Source: Nitrospirota bacterium | GTDB taxonomy: Bacteria; Nitrospirota; Nitrospiria; Nitrospirales; Nitrospiraceae | Direction of reading: 5' to 3' | Assembly: GCA_030645475.1 (NCBI GenBank) | Contig: JAUSMA010000017.1 | Span: 1 to 64,000 of the forward strand | DNA: 64,000 nucleotides | In this document: piece after piece, positions 26,603 to 45,224 of the stretch | How the letters are laid out: each line of letters starts with the position of its first letter | Numbering within the stretch: the stretch's first letter is position 1 | Translations under genes and position numbers: made by a program | The notes under the pieces: generated by a model | The model's database searches: none | What the model was told of the DNA's origin: nothing | The model's input: the letters and a program-made list of their open reading frames with translations, nothing else

Positions 26603-27772
26603 ATGCCTAAGGTAGCAGAACAGATCGTACCCGTGGTCTTGGGGGAGCGGAGTTATGACATTGTGCTCCAGCCAGGGCTATTGGCCACGGTTGGTAACAG
26701 GATCAGGGGCTTTACAACTTCTCCAAAGATAGGGGTTGTGACAGATCGGCATGTCGCAAGCCATTATCTTCAAGGGACGCTCCGTTCGCTTCGCAAGGCC
26801 GGGTACGATCCCACTCCGATTATCTTATCGCCTGGAGAGCCGACTAAAACGCTTGGGACAATCAGCAAGATCCTCGATGTATTAGCCAAACACAAATTTG
26901 AACGTCAGTCTCTGCTGCTGGCACTCGGCGGTGGGGTCGTCGGTGATATCACCGGATTTGCTGCCGCGATTTATCAACGAGGAATCCCGTTCCTCCAGGT
27001 GCCGACGACGCTTGTGGCGCAAGTCGATTCCAGTGTCGGGGGTAAGACTGGCGTGGACCACCGATTGGGTAAAAATCTCATCGGGGCCTTTTACCAACCA
27101 CGGGCCGTCCTGATCGATCCACTCACATTGCGTACCTTGCCTCGCCGCGAATGGGTCGCTGGCCTAGCGGAAGTCATCAAATACGGCATTATCGCCGATG
27201 AAGAGTTCTTCTCGTTTCTGGAACATGAAATCCCCGCATTGTTGAAGCTGAAAGCAGCGCCTGTTATCCGTGTCATTACACGATCGTGCGAGATCAAAGC
27301 GCAGGTAGTCGCAGCAGACGAGCGAGAATCGGATCGCCGGCGCATTCTCAATTATGGCCACACGATTGGGCATGCACTGGAGTCACTTGGTGGCTATCGT
27401 GGATTGATTCATGGTGAAGCGGTTGGGGTCGGGTTGGTGCAGGAGGCAGATCTGGCTCGTCATATGGGCTTGTGCGGGGATGAGGTGGTTGAACGGATTA
27501 GGAGTCTCGTGCAGCGGGCCGGTTTGTCCGAACAGGTGAGAGAGACCTCCTTCAAGTCCATCTGGAGCGCCATGCAACATGACAAGAAAGTGATTGGAGG
27601 GCAAGTCATCGGGGTATGGCCGATGCGGATTGGCGAGGTGGTCATTCGTCCGATTGAGCAGCAGGTCTGCGCCGAGTGGTTTCACGCGAAGCATGGTCGT
27701 GGGAGCCGACTAACGAGTGGTCGCCAGTCAGGCAAGGGCTCCGCTCGCCGAAAATCTTCAACGCGAAGGTAG
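26603..27772 (+). CDS. aroB: 3-dehydroquinate synthase
   Basis: The 389-residue enzyme makes 3-dehydroquinate from DAHP in the shikimate pathway. It has LGGGVVGDITGFAAAIYQRG, PTTLVAQVDSSVGGKTGVDH and the zinc ligand region LNYGHTIGHALE. About 25 extra basic residues end the protein (RQSGKGSARRKSSTRR). It ends 7 bases before the ANTAR gene. Confidence 0.96.
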   Translation: MPKVAEQIVPVVLGERSYDIVLQPGLLATVGNRIRGFTTSPKIGVVTDRHVASHYLQGTLRSLRKAGYDPTPIILSPGEPTKTLGTISKILDVLAKHKFERQSLLLALGGGVVGDITGFAAAIYQRGIPFLQVPTTLVAQVDSSVGGKTGVDHRLGKNLIGAFYQPRAVLIDPLTLRTLPRREWVAGLAEVIKYGIIADEEFFSFLEHEIPALLKLKAAPVIRVITRSCEIKAQVVAADERESDRRRILNYGHTIGHALESLGGYRGLIHGEAVGVGLVQEADLARHMGLCGDEVVERIRSLVQRAGLSEQVRETSFKSIWSAMQHDKKVIGGQVIGVWPMRIGEVVIRPIEQQVCAEWFHAKHGRGSRLTSGRQSGKGSARRKSSTRR

Positions 27773-27779
27773 ATCCATC

Positions 27780-29045
27780 ATGACGACCGCACGCACTCCA
27801 TCCGTGGCCCAGCTCCAACAGTCGTTGCGGGAAAAGACACGCGAAGTCGATGTGCTCCACCGTATTTCCGACTCGATCAGCAACCAACTAGACCTCGAAG
27901 CAGTTCTCAAGCATATCGTCGAAGTGGTCGTCGAAGTCACCAAGGCCGACGCCTGCCTCCTGTATCTCCTGTCAGATGGCCAGGATGAGCTCATTCTGAG
28001 AGCCTCGAAAAACCCTCACCCGAAATTGATTGGGCGGATTACGATCGGGTTGGGAGAGGGTATCACCGGGTGGGTCGCCCAGGAACGAACGCGCGTCGTG
28101 ATTCCGAGCAACGCAAGCGACGACTCGCGGTTTAAATTTTTCCACAACCTTCCGGAAGACCGCCATCAAGCCTTCGTCTCCGTGCCGATCATGGCGAAGA
28201 AGGAAGTGGTCGGTGTGATCAATGTCCAACATAAGCGGCCGAAACGCTATCGGCCTGATGAGATCGCGCTGCTCTCGACCATCGCGAATCAGGTCGGCGG
28301 CGCTATCGAGAACGCGCGACTCTACGATCAGATGAAACGCAAAGCCCTTCAAGTGGAAACCTTGTCGCTGGTCTCCGAAACGGTGGCTTCCAATCGATTG
28401 ATCGAAGACGTGTTGCAGCTCCTGGTGACCATGACCGCCCAAATGATGAGTTCCAAGATCTGCTCGATCATGTTATTGGACGAAACCAGCGGAGAGCTGC
28501 GGATCGAGGCGACACAAAGCCTCAGCGAGCAATATCGCCGCAAGCCGAACCTCAAGGTCGGCCAGAGCATCAGCGGTCGTGCGGTGAAAGACCGTCGGCC
28601 GATTATCGTGGCTGATGTCACCAAAGAGCAGGACTATATGTACCCGGACATGGCCAAGAAAGAAGGGTTATGCTCCATGGTCTCGGTGCCCATGATGGTG
28701 CGGGAGAAGGCGGTGGGTGTGATCAATAGCTATACGTCTGTCCCGCACGTGTTTACCAGTGAAGAGGTGAAGCTGCTCCAGGCTATCGCCAATCAAGCCG
28801 CCATCGCCATCGAGCATACGACCCTGATTGAGAAGTCTTTTGAGATGCAGGAAGCGCTGGCGGTTCGAAAGCTGATGGAGCGGGCTAAGGGCTACCTGAT
28901 GCGCTCGAAGAAGCTGACCGAAGAAGAGGCTTTCAAACTCATTCAGCGGCAAAGTATGGATCTGCGGAAGTCGATGCGCGAGATCGCCGAGGCCGTGTTG
29001 CTGGCTGGGGAAATCGACGGACGGGTGGATAGGCAGCGGGGCTAA
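27780..29045 (+). CDS. GAF-GAF-ANTAR transcription antitermination regulator
   Basis: The 421-residue soluble protein has two GAF sensor domains (about residues 25-175 and 190-345, with EGITGWVAQERTRVVIP and SISGRAVKDRRPIIVADV) and a C-terminal ANTAR domain (about 360-412; AKGYLMRSKKLTEEEAFKLI, then SMREIAEAVLLA). ANTAR domains bind paired hairpins with six-base loops in nascent RNA and prevent terminator formation. No receiver domain is present, so the signal is probably a small molecule or redox state read by a GAF domain. The ATG at 27780 follows AAGGTAG. Matching RNA elements occur at 32107, 41213, 41373 and 45098, which makes this a likely cognate regulator (inference). Confidence 0.93.
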   Translation: MTTARTPSVAQLQQSLREKTREVDVLHRISDSISNQLDLEAVLKHIVEVVVEVTKADACLLYLLSDGQDELILRASKNPHPKLIGRITIGLGEGITGWVAQERTRVVIPSNASDDSRFKFFHNLPEDRHQAFVSVPIMAKKEVVGVINVQHKRPKRYRPDEIALLSTIANQVGGAIENARLYDQMKRKALQVETLSLVSETVASNRLIEDVLQLLVTMTAQMMSSKICSIMLLDETSGELRIEATQSLSEQYRRKPNLKVGQSISGRAVKDRRPIIVADVTKEQDYMYPDMAKKEGLCSMVSVPMMVREKAVGVINSYTSVPHVFTSEEVKLLQAIANQAAIAIEHTTLIEKSFEMQEALAVRKLMERAKGYLMRSKKLTEEEAFKLIQRQSMDLRKSMREIAEAVLLAGEIDGRVDRQRG

Positions 29046-32091: not shown

Positions 32092-32106
32092 AGTCCCCAT
32101 CGGACA

Positions 32107-32198
32107 GGGGAACAACGGCGTTTCCCACCGGCCTCAAGATAGTACGGCATGGACAATGGCGTCCTCCGGCCCAAACGGGCTAGAGGGCGTTTTTTTTT
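32107..32198 (+). promoter_or_regulatory. ANTAR-type dual-hairpin antitermination element, porin-amt leader
   Basis: Hairpin P1 (32107-32126) has a 7-pair stem closing the loop AACGGC. After a 24-base linker, P2 (32151-32164) has stem GGAC/GTCC and loop AATGGC. Both loops have A at position 1 and G at position 4, the pattern recognised by ANTAR proteins. The 3' arm of P2 lies inside the left arm of the terminator at 32160, so P2 and terminator exclude each other. P2 is short (4 pairs). Binding by an ANTAR protein would allow read-through into the porin and nitrogen genes. Confidence 0.8.
32160..32198 (+). terminator. Regulated intrinsic terminator in the porin-amt leader
   Basis: Thirteen bases at 32160-32172 pair with 32177-32189 with one mismatch and two wobble pairs, around a four-base loop, followed by nine T. 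It lies 210 bp before the porin start, so it is an attenuator rather than the end of an upstream gene. Confidence 0.88.
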
Positions 32199-32312
32199 GA
32201 CCGCATTCGAGCAGTCTGAGTGGCGAGGAACATGAGAAGCGAGATGTATGTATTGGCTGGTGGGAATCAATGTGGAGCTGAAAATCGAATGGGCTTGGAG
32301 GGGCTGGAGGTT

Positions 32313-39729: not shown

Positions 39730-41139
39730 ATGAACGTACGTGAAGTGTTGGAGTATGTGAAGAAACATAAAGTCCAGATCGTCGACTTGAAGTTTGTCGA
39801 TCTCATCGGGACCTGGCAGCATTTCAGTATCCCGACGAATGAATTGACGGAGGACCTCTTCAAGGACGGGTCCGGACTGGACGGCTCCTCCATTCGCGGC
39901 TGGAAGGCCATCAACAACAGCGACATGTTGGTCGTGCCGGATCCGTCGACGGCTTGTCTCGATCCGTTCTGTGCGGTCCCGACGCTGAGCCTCATCGGCA
40001 ACGTGGTCGATCCGATCACGCGCGAGACCTACGATCGCGATCCGCGCTATGTCGCCCAGAAGGCGGAGAAATACCTCCAGAGCACGAAGATCGGCGATAC
40101 CTCCTACTGGGGTCCCGAGGCCGAGTTCTTCATTTTCGATCAAGCCCGGTACGATCAGAATGGTCACAGCGGTTACTACTTCATCGACTCCGAAGAAGGC
40201 GTGTGGAACATGGGGCAGGAAGGCCACAACCTGGGCGGCAAAATCCGCCAGAAGGAAGGCTATTTCCCCGTCGCTCCGACCGATACGCAACAGGACATCC
40301 GCAGCGAGATGATTCTGGAGATGGAGAAAGCCGGTATCCAGATCGAGAAGCATCACCACGAAGTCGCCACGGCCGGTCAGGCGGAAATCGATATCCGCTT
40401 CGACTCGCTGGTCAGGACAGCAGACAAAATGATGATGTACAAGTACATCGTCAAGAACGTGGCTCGCCGACATGGCAAGACTGCGACCTTCATGCCGAAG
40501 CCGATTTTCGGCGATAACGGATCGGGCATGCATAGCCACCAGAGCATCTGGAAGGACGGCAAGCCCCTGTTCGCCGGGAAGGAATATGCGGGCGTGTCGC
40601 AGATGTGCCTGCATTACATCGGCGGCATTCTGAAACATGCGCCGGCGCTGGCGGCCTTTACCAATCCCACGACGAACTCCTACAAGCGCTTGACGCCAGG
40701 GTTCGAAGCTCCGGTGTTGTTGGCCTATTCCAGCCGGAATCGGTCGGCCGGCATCCGGATTCCCATGTATTCACCGAGCCCCAAGGCGAAGCGGATCGAG
40801 GTGCGGTTCCCAGACCCGGCCGCGAATCCCTATCTCGCCTTCTCCGCCATGCTCATGGCCGGGTTGGACGGTATCCAGAACAAGATCAACCCCGGTGAAC
40901 CGGCTGAGCAGGATCTCTACGATCTCGAGGCGAAGGCAGCGGCGAAGATTCGAACCATGCCGGGCAGCCTCGACGAAGCGTTGAACAACCTTGAGAAGGA
41001 CCATGAGTTCCTGCTCAAAGGCGGGGTCTTCAGCAAGGACCTGATCGAAGCCTGGATCGGGTACAAGCGGACCAAGGAAGTCGATACCATGCGGTTGCGT
41101 CCGCATCCGTATGAGTTCTACCTCTATTACGACGTCTAG
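39730..41139 (+). CDS. glnA: Glutamine synthetase type I
   Basis: The 469-residue enzyme makes glutamine from glutamate, ammonia and ATP. It has the beta-Grasp start ([14 protein letters not shown]), [11 protein letters not shown], the ATP site [20 protein letters not shown] and the adenylylation tyrosine in [10 protein letters not shown], as expected where GlnE is present. GAAAGGAGAAGGGG precedes the ATG. It ends the porin-amt-gln run. Confidence 0.96.
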
Positions 41140-41165
41140 AGTACAGGACCCATCTTAGGTATGGG

Positions 41166-41194
41166 TTGACCTGGTCGGGGAGGCATGGTACATA
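41166..41194 (+). promoter_or_regulatory. Promoter candidate for the ABC transporter-cynS operon
   Basis: TTGACC at 41166-41171 and TACATA at 41189-41194 are 17 bases apart, with TGG just before the -10 (extended type). The start of transcription would be near 41201, shortly before the hairpin at 41213. A 6-base inverted repeat (41148-41153 with 41161-41166) overlaps the -35 and could be an operator or weak terminator after glnA. Confidence 0.5.
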
Positions 41195-41212
41195 TCTCCC
41201 TATGAGCGGAGT

Positions 41213-41306
41213 CGAGGCAACGGCGCCTCGGTAAGGCTCTCGACATACGGCAAACGGACAACGGCGTCCGTCATTCTGGAAAGAGTGGCGGACGCCGTTT
41301 TGTTTT
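41213..41306 (+). promoter_or_regulatory. ANTAR-type dual-hairpin antitermination element 1, cyanate operon leader
   Basis: P1 (41213-41230) is a perfect CGAGGC/GCCTCG stem with loop AACGGC. After 23 bases, P2 (41254-41271) is a perfect ACGGAC/GTCCGT stem with the same loop. The P2 loop and 3' arm are the left arm of the terminator at 41260, so only one of the two can form. It is the clearest example in the window. Confidence 0.88.
41260..41306 (+). terminator. Regulated terminator 1 in the cyanate operon leader
   Basis: Eleven bases at 41260-41270 pair perfectly with 41289-41299, followed by a T-rich tail (TTTTGTTTT). It lies 190 bp upstream of the first gene and 120 bp after glnA, with a promoter between, so it works as an attenuator. 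Confidence 0.9.
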
Positions 41307-41372
41307 CGGCACAGGTCGTCGGAGATCGGTGCCAACGTACACAGTGGATAGGCCGGTGCCGACCTATCAATG

Positions 41373-41423
41373 CGGACAATGGCGTCCGTCTCTCACGACT
41401 GGGAGGCGGACGCTTTTTATTTT
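41373..41423 (+). promoter_or_regulatory. ANTAR-type element 2 in the cyanate operon leader, with terminator
   Basis: A hairpin at 41373-41388 (CGGAC/GTCCG, loop AATGGC) has the A1/G4 pattern. Its loop end and 3' arm overlap a 13-pair terminator stem (41382-41394 with 41401-41413, two wobble pairs, six-base loop) followed by TTTTTATTTT. A partner P1 is not clear; the upstream stem GATAGG/CCTATC (41346-41367) does not have a hexaloop of the right type. This is the second attenuator in tandem. Confidence 0.78.
41382..41423 (+). terminator. Regulated terminator 2 in the cyanate operon leader
   Basis: The 13-pair stem and T-rich tail end 72 bp before the first gene of the operon. The stem uses the 3' half of the hairpin at 41373. 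Confidence 0.88.
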
Positions 41424-41495: not shown

Positions 41496-42827
41496 ATGAG
41501 CGAAGGAGATGGGGCCAGTAAGCGGACGATGACAGCGAATCCAAAAGCTGTCGTGAAAGCCGAATCCTCCGAGGAGTATTTTGAGCGCAACGTCGAGCAA
41601 GCTGTGGTGTCGGCTGTTATCCAAGCTGCCGTTCCATCACGCCGGAGGTTTCTCGCATCCATGGGAGCCGCAGCGCTAACGGCGCTTGTCGCTGAATTAC
41701 TCCCGTTGAAAGAGTTCGCCGCATTCGCGGCCGATCCGGTCGGGAAGCCGGAAAAGACAGACCTCAGTATCGGCTTTATTCCCATTACCTGTGCCACGCC
41801 GATTATCATGGCGGAGCCGCTGGGGTTCTATAGCAAGCATGGCCTGAATGCCAAGGTCAAACGTGCAGCCGGCTGGGCCATGGTGCGGGATTGGGCCATC
41901 AACAAAGATGTCGACGCGGCGCATATGTTGTCGCCCATGCCACTGGCGATCACCCTGGGGGCCGGTTCCGTCCCCGTGCCGTTTTACATGCCGGCGGTGG
42001 AGAATATTAACGGCCAAGCGATCACGCTGCATAACAAGCACAAGGGCGTCAAAACTGCCGCCGACATGAAGGGGTTTCGGTTCTGTGTGCCGTTCGACTA
42101 TTCGATGCATAACTATCTTCTGCGCTATTTCTTGGCGGAAGGTGGCGTGCATCCTGACAAAGATGTGCAAATCCGTGTCGTGCCGCCACCGGAGATGGTG
42201 GCCAATCTGAAAGCTGGCAACGTCGATGGATATCTGGCTCCCGATCCTTTCAACCAACGGGCGGTCTACGAAAACGCAGGGTTCATCTTCAAACTCTCCA
42301 AGGAAATCTGGGATAAGCATCCCTGTTGCGGTTTCGCGATTTCCAAGGACTTTGCCACGCAGTACCCGAATACGTTTCTGGCGCTCTTCCGGTCTATCGT
42401 GGATGCCACACACTACGCGTCGAACCCGGCTCATCGGAAAGAGATTGCCGAGGCGATTGCACCGACGAATTATTTGAATCAGCCGGTGACGGTCTTGGAA
42501 CAGGTGCTGACGGGAACCTACGCGGACGGATTGGGCGCAATCAAGAAGGATCCGAGCCGTATCGATTTCGATCCCTTTCCCTGGCACTCGATGGCGATTT
42601 GGATCATGACCCAAATGAAACGGTGGGGTCATTTAAAGGGCGAGGTCAATTACAGCGCCGTGGCCGAGCAAGTGTATCGAGCGGCCGACTGCGATCGGAT
42701 CGCCAAGGAGCTTGGTTATCCAACGCATCAGGGAGTGATGGCCAAACATACGATCATGGGCCGGGAGTTCGATGCAACCCAACCGGATGCCTATGTTCGC
42801 AGCTTTAAAATCCACAGTATGGCGTAA
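41496..42827 (+). CDS. ABC transporter substrate-binding protein, NrtA/CynA type
   Basis: The 443-residue product has a long N-region with a Tat-like signal (SRRRFLASMGAAALTALVAE), then the NrtA/CmpA fold (IGFIPITCATPIIMAEPLGF and HMLSPMPLAITLGAG). This family binds nitrate, nitrite, cyanate or bicarbonate. The operon also encodes cyanase, FNT and nitrite reductase, so cyanate or nitrite is the likely ligand (inference). AAGGAGG precedes the ATG. Confidence 0.9.
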   Translation: MSEGDGASKRTMTANPKAVVKAESSEEYFERNVEQAVVSAVIQAAVPSRRRFLASMGAAALTALVAELLPLKEFAAFAADPVGKPEKTDLSIGFIPITCATPIIMAEPLGFYSKHGLNAKVKRAAGWAMVRDWAINKDVDAAHMLSPMPLAITLGAGSVPVPFYMPAVENINGQAITLHNKHKGVKTAADMKGFRFCVPFDYSMHNYLLRYFLAEGGVHPDKDVQIRVVPPPEMVANLKAGNVDGYLAPDPFNQRAVYENAGFIFKLSKEIWDKHPCCGFAISKDFATQYPNTFLALFRSIVDATHYASNPAHRKEIAEAIAPTNYLNQPVTVLEQVLTGTYADGLGAIKKDPSRIDFDPFPWHSMAIWIMTQMKRWGHLKGEVNYSAVAEQVYRAADCDRIAKELGYPTHQGVMAKHTIMGREFDATQPDAYVRSFKIHSMA

Positions 42828-42848: not shown

Positions 42849-43730
42849 ATGAAAACAAATGGAAATGGCAGTCCGTGGATGATTTCGGTGTTTATCCTCG
42901 TGATTTTTCTCGGCGGGTGGCATTTGCTGACGCTGCGGTCGTCTTTTGACGCGAAGGGCAAGACGGACGAACAACTACAGATGATGGAGTTCAACGGAGA
43001 CATCGTTCGAGCTGGAGCGGGAGGCTACGTCTGGAACCCTGAGAAGATGAAGGGTGTGCCGGGTCCTCTCGCAGTGGTGGAGAAAGCGAGAACTGAATTG
43101 AGCGAGGCCTTCGTCATCAAGGGAACCAACGACCACGGCATCGGCTACCTGGTTCTCTACACCGTCTCGAGATTCGCGGGAGGGTTCCTTGCGGCATCGG
43201 TCGTAGCGATCATCTTCGGTGTCCTCCTGGGGCTGAACCGCGTCCTGTTCCGAGCCGTCAACCCGTTCATTCAGGTCTTAAAACCGATCTCGCCGCTGGC
43301 CTGGATGCCCTTGCTGCTGTACACGGTCAAGGACCCCAAATGGACAGCCGTCTTGGTCGTGTTTATGGCAGCCGTTTGGCCGACTCTGGCGACGACGGCG
43401 TTCGGAGTAAGTTCGCTCAAGAAGGAATATTTACACGTCGCGGCGATTCTGCAGCTGTCTTGGTTCAAGCGGCTCTATCGGGTGATTTTGCCAGGGGCAG
43501 CCCCGACCATCGTGAACGGTCTGAGAATCGCGTTCGGGAGCGCATTGGTGGCCGTGGTGCCGGCAGAGATGCTGCTGGGTGAGTTGGGCGTCGGCTACCT
43601 AAGTTGGATCGAATGGAACAATCTCGACATTGCCGGGGTCATTTTCGCGATTTTGGTGGTCGGGGTCGTCGGCGTCATTCTGGATTCAGGATTCAATAAA
43701 CTTGCCGGTCTCGTAACCTATCAGGAGTAA
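42849..43730 (+). CDS. ABC transporter permease, NrtB/CynB type
   Basis: The 293-residue product has an N-terminal membrane segment, a periplasmic insertion of about 70 residues, then a permease domain with the EAA-type loop ILQLSWFKRLYRVILPGAAP. It forms the membrane channel for the preceding binding protein. It ends 2 bases before the ATPase gene. Confidence 0.92.
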   Translation: MKTNGNGSPWMISVFILVIFLGGWHLLTLRSSFDAKGKTDEQLQMMEFNGDIVRAGAGGYVWNPEKMKGVPGPLAVVEKARTELSEAFVIKGTNDHGIGYLVLYTVSRFAGGFLAASVVAIIFGVLLGLNRVLFRAVNPFIQVLKPISPLAWMPLLLYTVKDPKWTAVLVVFMAAVWPTLATTAFGVSSLKKEYLHVAAILQLSWFKRLYRVILPGAAPTIVNGLRIAFGSALVAVVPAEMLLGELGVGYLSWIEWNNLDIAGVIFAILVVGVVGVILDSGFNKLAGLVTYQE

Positions 43731-43732
43731 CC

Positions 43733-44581
43733 ATGTCATTTCTCGTTGTCGATCATGTGAGCAAGTTTTTCCCCGGTCATGCCGGAGGTGGAGACGTGTG
43801 TATCTTCAAAGACGTGACCTTGAAAGTCGACAAGGGCGAGTTTGTCACCGTGATCGGCCATTCGGGATGCGGCAAGAGCACCTTGCTCAACATCATCGCC
43901 GGGTTGGAAACCCTGTCGGAAGGCGGCGTGATCTTGAATGGGCGCGAGGTGTCCGGCCCTGGATTGGACCGGATGGTGGTGTTCCAGAATTTTGCTCTCA
44001 TGCCCTGGATGACGGTGTTCGAGAACATCTCGCTGGCCGTCCGGTCGGCCTACCCGGATTGGGAACACGGACAGGTGGTGGCGCATGTGCATAAGTACAT
44101 TGCGTTGGTCGGACTGAAGGGAGCTGAAGATAAGCGGCCGATCGCCTTATCAGGAGGCATGAAGCAGCGAGTCGGTCTCGCCAGGGCCTTTTCAATTGAG
44201 CCCAAGGTGTTGCTGCTCGATGAGCCCTTCGCTCAGATCGATGCGCTGACCAGAGGAGTCATTCAAGAGGAATTAGTTCAGATGTGGAACGCCACGCGCA
44301 ACACGGTATTCATGGTCACACACGATGTGGACGAGGCCATTCTCTTGTCTGACCGCATCATGCTCATGACGAACGGGCCATCATCGCGCATTGCGGAGAT
44401 TGTGGATGTGACGATCCCGCGTCCCAGATCGAGAGATTCGGTCATTGAACATCCCCATTACTACAAGATCAGGAACCATGTGATTCATTTTCTCGTCCGT
44501 CATGCGTCGCATGGAGTGGTGGGTGAGGGGGCGGTGCCAGGAGAATCGTCGGAGGCCGTTCCGCTCGTCGTGAGGTTCTGA
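43733..44581 (+). CDS. ABC transporter ATP-binding protein, NrtD/CynD type
   Basis: The 282-residue ATPase has Walker A GHSGCGKST, the Q-loop VVFQNFALMPWM, signature LSGGMKQRVGLA, Walker B VLLLDEPFAQID and MVTHDVDEAI. It lacks the extra regulatory C-terminal domain of NrtC. It completes the three-gene transporter. Confidence 0.93.
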   Translation: MSFLVVDHVSKFFPGHAGGGDVCIFKDVTLKVDKGEFVTVIGHSGCGKSTLLNIIAGLETLSEGGVILNGREVSGPGLDRMVVFQNFALMPWMTVFENISLAVRSAYPDWEHGQVVAHVHKYIALVGLKGAEDKRPIALSGGMKQRVGLARAFSIEPKVLLLDEPFAQIDALTRGVIQEELVQMWNATRNTVFMVTHDVDEAILLSDRIMLMTNGPSSRIAEIVDVTIPRPRSRDSVIEHPHYYKIRNHVIHFLVRHASHGVVGEGAVPGESSEAVPLVVRF

Positions 44582-44632
44582 AGGAACGGGAGTGCGCCTG
44601 TGCCAGAGGCATTAACAAAGGAGGAATATGCG

Positions 44633-45073
44633 ATGGAAGTGAAGAAAGCGAAAGACGCGATTAAAGCAAAGCGGATGGAGAAAAAGGTAACGATCGCTGA
44701 GGTGGCCAAAGCGGTCGGGAGAAATCCAACCTTTGTTGCAGCGGTGTTGCAGGGGACACACAAGTTGCCGGCTGAGGAGGCGAAGAAGGTCGGCGACTTG
44801 TTGGGCCTCGATGCAGACCTGACCGCGTCGTTGAGTAAATTCCCGGTTCGCACCGATTACCCGATTACGACTGATCCGTTCAAGTATCGCTTGATGGAGA
44901 TCATCGGGGTCTATGGCGATTCGATGCGCGAACAGGCCAACGAGATGTTCGGCGACGGCATCATGAGCGCGATTGACTTCACGCTCGACATGGAAAAGGT
45001 GACCGGCAGCCAGGGCGAGGCCCGGTGCAAGATTACGCTGAACGGGAAGTGGCTCGAGTATAAGACGTTTTAG
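44633..45073 (+). CDS. cynS: Cyanase (cyanate hydratase)
   Basis: The 146-residue enzyme converts cyanate and bicarbonate to ammonia and CO2. It has an N-terminal helix-turn-helix-like half (VTIAEVAKAVGRNPTFVAAV) and a C-terminal catalytic half; the catalytic Arg, Glu and Ser are seen as R86 and E89 (KYRLMEI) and S112 (IMSAIDF). A GTG at 44600 is in frame, but AAAGGAGGA seven bases before 44633 and the family N-terminus favour the ATG. The released ammonia could feed glnA and ammonia oxidisers. Confidence 0.95.
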   Translation: MEVKKAKDAIKAKRMEKKVTIAEVAKAVGRNPTFVAAVLQGTHKLPAEEAKKVGDLLGLDADLTASLSKFPVRTDYPITTDPFKYRLMEIIGVYGDSMREQANEMFGDGIMSAIDFTLDMEKVTGSQGEARCKITLNGKWLEYKTF

Positions 45074-45097
45074 CGACCATCCGAGAGTGGGTCTGGT

Positions 45098-45199
45098 GCG
45101 GGAACAAAGGCGTTCCTGCCGCGTAACGACAGAGCGAGATGCGAAGCGGACAACGGCGTCCGTCTCCTATGCGGGAAGACGGACGCCGTTGTGCTTTTT
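45098..45199 (+). promoter_or_regulatory. ANTAR-type dual-hairpin antitermination element between cynS and the FNT gene
   Basis: P1 (45098-45119) has an 8-pair stem with one wobble and loop AAAGGC. After a 27-base spacing, P2 (45147-45162) has CGGAC/GTCCG and loop AACGGC. Both loops show A1 and G4. The P2 loop and 3' arm form the left arm of the terminator at 45152. It begins 25 bp after cynS, so it controls read-through from cynS to the FNT-nirA genes. Confidence 0.86.
45152..45199 (+). terminator. Regulated terminator between cynS and the FNT gene
   Basis: Thirteen bases at 45152-45164 pair perfectly with 45178-45190, followed by GTGC and TTTTT. By default it would end the transporter-cynS transcript. 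Confidence 0.9.
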
Positions 45200-45224
45200 G
45201 AATGTGATGATAAAGGAGGCCTCG

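Follow-up and report, generated by a model that had tools for sequence, protein, structure and literature searches.

Genes and leader elements at the glnA-linked locus

Analysis of the window, the whole stretch of 64,000 nucleotides studied here, identified four ANTAR-type attenuators in three leaders, together with one ANTAR protein gene, in a segment of about 17.5 kb. The gene order glnA-[tandem]-SBP-permease-ATPase-cynS-[single]-nirC-nirA places two successive attenuators directly downstream of glnA, and a further single attenuator precedes a porin gene that heads amt-amt-glnB-glnD-glnA. Coordinates of all features are collected in Table 1.

Table 1. Genes and RNA elements of the glnA-linked locus and of its putative ANTAR partner
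Feature	Position	Strand	Remarks
GAF-GAF-ANTAR protein gene	27717..29045	+	start likelier ATG at 27781
Single ANTAR attenuator, porin leader	32099..32206	+	canonical; before porin gene (PF07642) heading amt-amt-glnB-glnD-glnA
glnA	39730..41139	+	directly upstream of the leader
Intergenic region, glnA to SBP gene			356 bases; holds promoter, P1a, P2a/T1, H1, H2, P2b/T2
Sigma-70-like promoter TTGACC-N17-TACATA	41166..41194	+	sole promoter before the SBP gene
P1a, CGAGGC-AACGGC-GCCTCG	41213..41230	+	canonical hexaloop hairpin, A1 and G4
P1a-P2a linker	41231..41253	+	23 nt
P2a, ACGGAC-AACGGC-GTCCGT	41254..41271	+	overlaps T1
Terminator T1	41260..41306	+	18-bp stem 41260-41299, -32.9 kcal/mol; U-tract 41300-41306
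H1, GGCACaGGTC-GTCGGA-GATCgGTGCC	41308..41333	+	imperfect hexaloop hairpin, candidate degenerate P1b; G1, G4
H2, GATAGGcC-GGTGCC-GaCCTATC	41347..41368	+	alternative P1b, or spacer hairpin drawing H1 near P2b
P2b, GCGGAC-AATGGC-GTCCGT	41372..41389	+	overlaps T2
Terminator T2	41381..41422	+	15-bp stem 41381-41414, -26.5 kcal/mol; U-tract 41415-41422
SBP gene	41496..42827	+	first gene after the leader; NMT1_2 (NrtA/CynA-like) substrate-binding protein, PF13379, 5.8e-82
Permease (NrtB-like), ATPase (NrtCD-like), cynS (cyanase)	42849..45073	+	
Single ANTAR attenuator, nirC leader	45091..45202	+	before nirC-nirA, between cynS and nirC

The tandem leader consists of two P2-terminator units (41254-41306 and 41372-41422) whose P2 hairpins start 118 nt apart, and about 257 bp separate the -35 box from the end of T2. 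A preliminary description of this DNA had placed two complete terminators behind one promoter within 260 bp, each overlapped by a hexaloop hairpin, and this arrangement was borne out to within a base or two. Two intrinsic terminators were observed in the leader compared with 0.2 expected from shuffled sequences, and both halves of the leader folded far more stably than their shuffles (z of -6.0 and -3.9). The first unit with its recruitment hairpin (41213-41306) has the two 6-nt loops with A1 and G4 that characterize ANTAR dual-hexaloop elements, and its P2 overlaps and excludes an intrinsic terminator. The second unit (41308-41422) likewise has an A1/G4 hexaloop P2 overlapping its terminator. 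The P1a-P2a linker falls within the 2-25 nt of an actinobacterial survey (PMC8164766) and beyond the 5-12 nt of eut leaders, and would shorten to about 14 nt if a lower stem (41204-41207/41236-41239) forms.

The promoter was not reported by a generic promoter scan of the window leader; a TTGAC-N16-19-TA element was nevertheless present at the matching place, ahead of P1a, in all 56 related tandem leaders. No second promoter was found downstream of T1 in any of these 56 leaders. An extra promoter between the two units was accordingly rejected, and a transcription start downstream of 41306, the objection raised in the preliminary description, finds no support in the sequence. A terminator between the glnA stop codon and P1a was absent from the window and from all 56 related leaders.

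Genome-wide searches placed these elements solely in the window. All four copies of the P2 core GGACAAYGGCGTCC in the genome lie on the + strand of the window, and the reversed control pattern has none. A covariance model of P1, P2 and terminator, whose training set included the three best elements but not the second unit of the tandem leader, recovered four forward elements in 3.7 Mb, again all within the window: the tandem leader at two places, with 102.7 and 44.1 bits, and the leaders of nirC, at 73.1 bits, and of porin-amt-amt-glnB-glnD-glnA, at 62.7 bits. Its other matches were antisense overlaps of the same four elements, and since it aligns the second-unit P1 by skipping the hexaloop it was not used as evidence for that hairpin. 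Rfam models at gathering score gave no match in the window. The best permissive match of the leader was RF00625 (P11, a Pseudomonas sRNA) at 41155-41296, with 23.9 bits against a gathering score of 70 and an E-value of 0.0022; a speculative possibility is that P11, too, is an ANTAR leader serving nitrogen genes.

An alignment of 18 elements of the first-unit type showed compensatory changes in P1 and in the terminator beyond all shuffles, and the P1a stem has changed on both sides at five of its six pairs among relatives. Position 3 of the P2 loop, the sole free position, covaries with its partner in the terminator stem (three double changes at columns 68-104). Such a paired change between the P2 loop and the terminator arm would be expected if the two folds exclude each other.

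Conservation and position of the tandem leader

The family to which the window belongs was taken to be the Nitrospira family, as the matches of the leader in the named collection are Nitrospira. Of 175 family genomes, 51 contained the spaced-pair pattern and none its reversed control, and six further tandems recognized by looser criteria brought the total to 57 of 61 glnA-linked leaders, a set that takes in genomes G132 and G133. The remaining four leaders (L009, L013, L014 and L203) have a single attenuator at this place. L013 reads as P1a fused to a terminator of the T2 kind and L009 as a T1-type unit with a T2 tail, and both look as deletions between two repeats would leave them. Among 395 genomes of the phylum the tandem pattern matched 37, all in the Nitrospira family. 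The cultured species N. moscoviensis and N. defluvii both carry the tandem. Of the 56 tandem leaders examined, 52 have an intact T1 and 55 an intact T2.

The tandem lay directly behind glnA, at 108-131 bases, in 55 of 56 leaders, the exception being at a contig end. The gene that follows it was nirC in 35, the SBP gene in 19 and cynS in two. A leader specific to the cyanate transporter, as initially described, was consequently rejected, the tandem being tied to its place behind glnA. Genome G146 (leader L111) has the order glnA-[tandem]-nirC-cynS-[single]-SBP, and its comparison with the window indicates that the leaders have held their places and order while the genes were swapped. Judged from the genomes compared, the tandem is an old and positional feature within the Nitrospira family.

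We also considered whether the tandem is widespread outside the family and rejected this, as the non-Nitrospira matches examined were interspersed GGACGAGGRCGTCC repeats or coding-like sequences, without U-tracts. The GGACGAGGRCGTCC palindromes (L109, L116, L122, L133, L146, L108, L123 and L143) occur in many copies, are unrelated to ANTAR leaders and include matches in the acidobacterial Centralia_MAG_134 and the verrucomicrobial RA.bin27 genomes. Separately, three loci of other genera (L016, L019 and L021) carry the SBP gene with no ANTAR leader, after a gene with a sigma-54-activator-like end, suggesting a different mode of control for the SBP gene.

The candidate second recruitment hairpin

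The preliminary description found a clear P1 in the first unit only and regarded the second as missing. The former holds for the window, where the second P1 (P1b) is imperfect, but the latter does not, since comparison of related leaders revealed the hidden hairpin. In 50 of 56 leaders the spacer between T1 and P2b held a hairpin whose stem was 5 bp or longer and whose loop had exactly six bases, compared with 11.4 in shuffles (sd 2.9, highest 18); this search placed no requirement on G4, and of these 50 leaders 49 had it nonetheless. When the stem had to reach 6 bp and G4 was required, 48 of 56 spacers retained a hairpin (shuffles 2.1, highest 6). Among 27 distinct P1b loops, position 4 was G in 26, position 1 was G in 18 and A in six, and the rest vary.

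These hairpins fall into two types. In H1-type P1b the closing pairs GAC/GTC, which are also those of P2, are near-invariant while the outer three pairs covary, with 35 double changes in the stems and 0/500 shuffles. As the covariation input for both types was hairpins already recognized, which favours pairing, it is the slid controls and double changes that carry weight. All 14 sequences of the H2 type (GGTC-NNNGNN-GACC) have G4, and covariation of their stems is weaker.

The window is among the six leaders lacking a perfect hexaloop hairpin in the spacer. Its H1 has an A-G mismatch and the loop GTCGGA, and its H2 a C-A mismatch and the loop GGTGCC; G4 is present in both and A1 in neither, so that the second unit has no P1 loop with A1. 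H1 matches in position the H1-type P1b of other genera, while relatives have H2 with an intact stem and G4, and H2 is the better kept of the two in the three nearest relatives. The linker between H2 and P2b is 3 nt, and eutP with a 3-nt linker showed strongly reduced induction (PMC3369931). Folding of H2 would leave 16 unpaired nucleotides between H1 and P2b, near the 14 of the first unit. On this comparison the second P1 is degenerate in the window and clear in relatives, rather than absent. The question of whether one protein dimer can serve both units becomes less pressing, given P1b hairpins in 50 of 56 leaders and two imperfect ones in the window.

The putative ANTAR partner

The sole ANTAR-domain protein detected in the genome is a GAF-GAF-ANTAR protein encoded near the leaders; the listed start at 27717 overlaps aroB, and the ATG at 27781 is the likelier start. 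The assignment of the leader as tandem ANTAR-type attenuators behind one promoter, with this single candidate partner encoded nearby, is supported. The protein lacks a receiver domain and its gene an adjoining kinase gene, being flanked by aroB and an NAD synthase gene. The GAF domain of PtsP is the nearest match to the first of the two GAF domains (PRK11061, below cut-off), a hint at most as to the signal.

Alignment to EutV (6WSH) showed that the RNA-contacting residues are largely retained or conservatively replaced, with Arg142 as R, Lys143 as K, Lys147 as R, Lys149 as K, Glu160 as E, Tyr164 as F, Met172 as M and Arg175 as R, while the window protein has Q, D and S in place of Arg168, Asn173 and Arg177. 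For residues such as Arg142, Lys149, Glu160, Tyr164 and Met172 a role in G4 contact or in positioning of the loop has been reported (PMC8934654).

Across the 175 family genomes an ANTAR gene was present in 59 of 61 with a glnA-linked attenuator compared with 45 of 114 without (Fisher 2e-15, a guide only and overstated, as the genomes are related). Within genus g16 the ANTAR-positive genomes had two to five P2 cores and the ANTAR-negative ones mostly none or one. Most genomes of this genus (G053-G131) have neither the ANTAR gene nor the P2 motif, an apparent joint loss. Genome G063, an assembly 87% complete, keeps the tandem leader with no ANTAR gene detected.

Comparison with known ANTAR systems

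ANTAR dual-hexaloop leaders are known from eutP, eutG, eutS and eutA with EutV (Enterococcus faecalis), nasF with NasR (Klebsiella) and amiE with AmiR (Pseudomonas) (PMC3369931, PMC8934654). The window resembles these systems in the A1/G4 hexaloops P1 and P2 of its first unit, in a P2 overlapping an intrinsic terminator, in the nitrogen genes downstream and in the encoded ANTAR protein. It departs from them in that its one promoter is followed by a single leader with two complete P2-terminator units, in a longer linker between P1 and P2 (23 nt), in the G4-only class of its second P1, and in an ANTAR protein that has two GAF domains and no receiver domain. Several terminators are found in the eut locus too, each of them at the start of a different gene. 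The NasS-NasT nas leaders of Azotobacter and Paracoccus likewise subject nitrate/nitrite assimilation genes to ANTAR antitermination (PMC3795266, PMC5424462). In those systems NasS, an NrtA-like sensor, holds the receiver-ANTAR protein NasT, whereas the window's sole ANTAR protein has two GAF domains and no NasS-like neighbour.

The ANTAR regulon of Desulfotomaculum acetoxidans, in which six transcription units account for at least 13 RNA hits (PMC3369931), is also a nitrogen regulon with more than one ANTAR element per transcription unit, and may be a precedent for two elements sharing one leader. In the literature covered, which was partial, we found no description of Nitrospira ANTAR elements or of two ANTAR attenuators per leader, allowing that the D. 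acetoxidans regulon may include such. As read from sequence and comparison, the tandem is a real and conserved variant form of ANTAR attenuation, and a new one.

Proposed function of the tandem leader

We consider it probable that the leader is a double ANTAR valve, in which two serial terminators are both under ANTAR control, each with its own hairpin pair and the second weaker. RNA polymerase starting at the local promoter, or reading on from glnA, as the terminator-free junction would permit, would meet two intrinsic terminators in series, and by default each terminator stem would form and transcription would stop. We infer that an active GAF-GAF-ANTAR dimer, presumably responding to nitrogen status, would bind the P1 hexaloop and then the P2 hexaloop, and that the folded P2 would capture the 5' arm of the terminator, so that neither T1 nor, further on, T2 would form and transcription would proceed into the scavenging genes. 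Each terminator would require its own P2 to be occupied, making the on-state a matter of two bindings. The recruitment hairpin of the second unit belongs to a degenerate class with G4 only (usually with G1), for which weaker binding would be expected. Leak in the off-state would be the product of two readthroughs and thus lower, and the response to active ANTAR protein would be steeper with two units.

Several observations weigh against a double valve. Neither P1b candidate in the window is intact or has A1, and in eutP an A1U change in either loop, or a 3-nt linker such as that between H2 and P2b, strongly cut induction (PMC3369931). The P1-P2 linker of 23 nt exceeds that of the eut leaders, and the four single-attenuator relatives imply that doubling is not essential.

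The constant place of the tandem behind glnA, with no other terminator there, suggests that it also terminates the glnA transcript, shielding the scavenging genes. Doubling might on this basis be mainly insulation, T1 and T2 together ending the glnA transcript and keeping readthrough from the scavenging genes, which would fit a tandem that stays behind glnA in 55 of 56 leaders whatever the next gene. We regard this as possible, at rather less than even chance. Against it, the conserved promoter between glnA and P1a in all 56 leaders indicates that the leader has its own transcripts too, and a single ANTAR-independent terminator would insulate equally. Insulation is compatible with the double valve, as the reason for it rather than as a separate mechanism.

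We think it unlikely, yet worth stating, that the second unit represents a separate class of ANTAR hairpin needing G4 only and that the leader acts as a two-step counter, possibly with handover of the same dimer in cis. Were this true, the second, weaker site would let the genes be expressed only where active dimer is abundant and polymerase has already got past the first stop.

Two further readings have little probability in our estimate. In the first, only T1 is regulated and T2 is a partly constitutive back-up arising from duplication, in which P2b persists as terminator-stem sequence; the imperfect P1b of the window, the single-attenuator relatives and the sharing of P2 sequence with the terminator arm would be in keeping with this, but P2b retains its 5' half (GGAC) and loop A1 and A2, needless for T2, G4 hexaloop hairpins are kept upstream of P2b in most leaders, and a strong terminator acting constitutively ahead of the operon's first gene would silence it. 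In the second, which we find just as doubtful, one dimer would serve both units in cis, loading at P1a and passing to P2a and P2b such that a full second P1 is unneeded. The EutV dimer contacts a single hexaloop each time and probably moves from P1 to P2 (PMC8934654), and P1b has lost A1 in most lineages besides being imperfect in the window; however, the near-invariant G4 and GAC/GTC closing pairs of P1b and its covarying outer pairs would be unneeded were P1b idle, and antitermination in eutP was lost once 20 nt were added to the linker (PMC8934654), while the starts of P2a and P2b lie 118 nt from each other.

The leaders of the Nitrospira family offer a conserved, naturally occurring experiment on which features an ANTAR protein has to recognize. 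In the EutV crystal structure G4 stacks on Tyr164 and base contacts fall on G4 and none on A1 (PMC8934654), whereas a change of A1 to U impairs eutP induction in either loop (PMC3369931); the second-unit hairpins of this family keep G4 and drop A1. Relatives with one and with two units provide matched templates for the effect of doubling an attenuator. The leaders are predicted to gate the scavenging of ammonium, cyanate and nitrite in nitrifiers of global importance.
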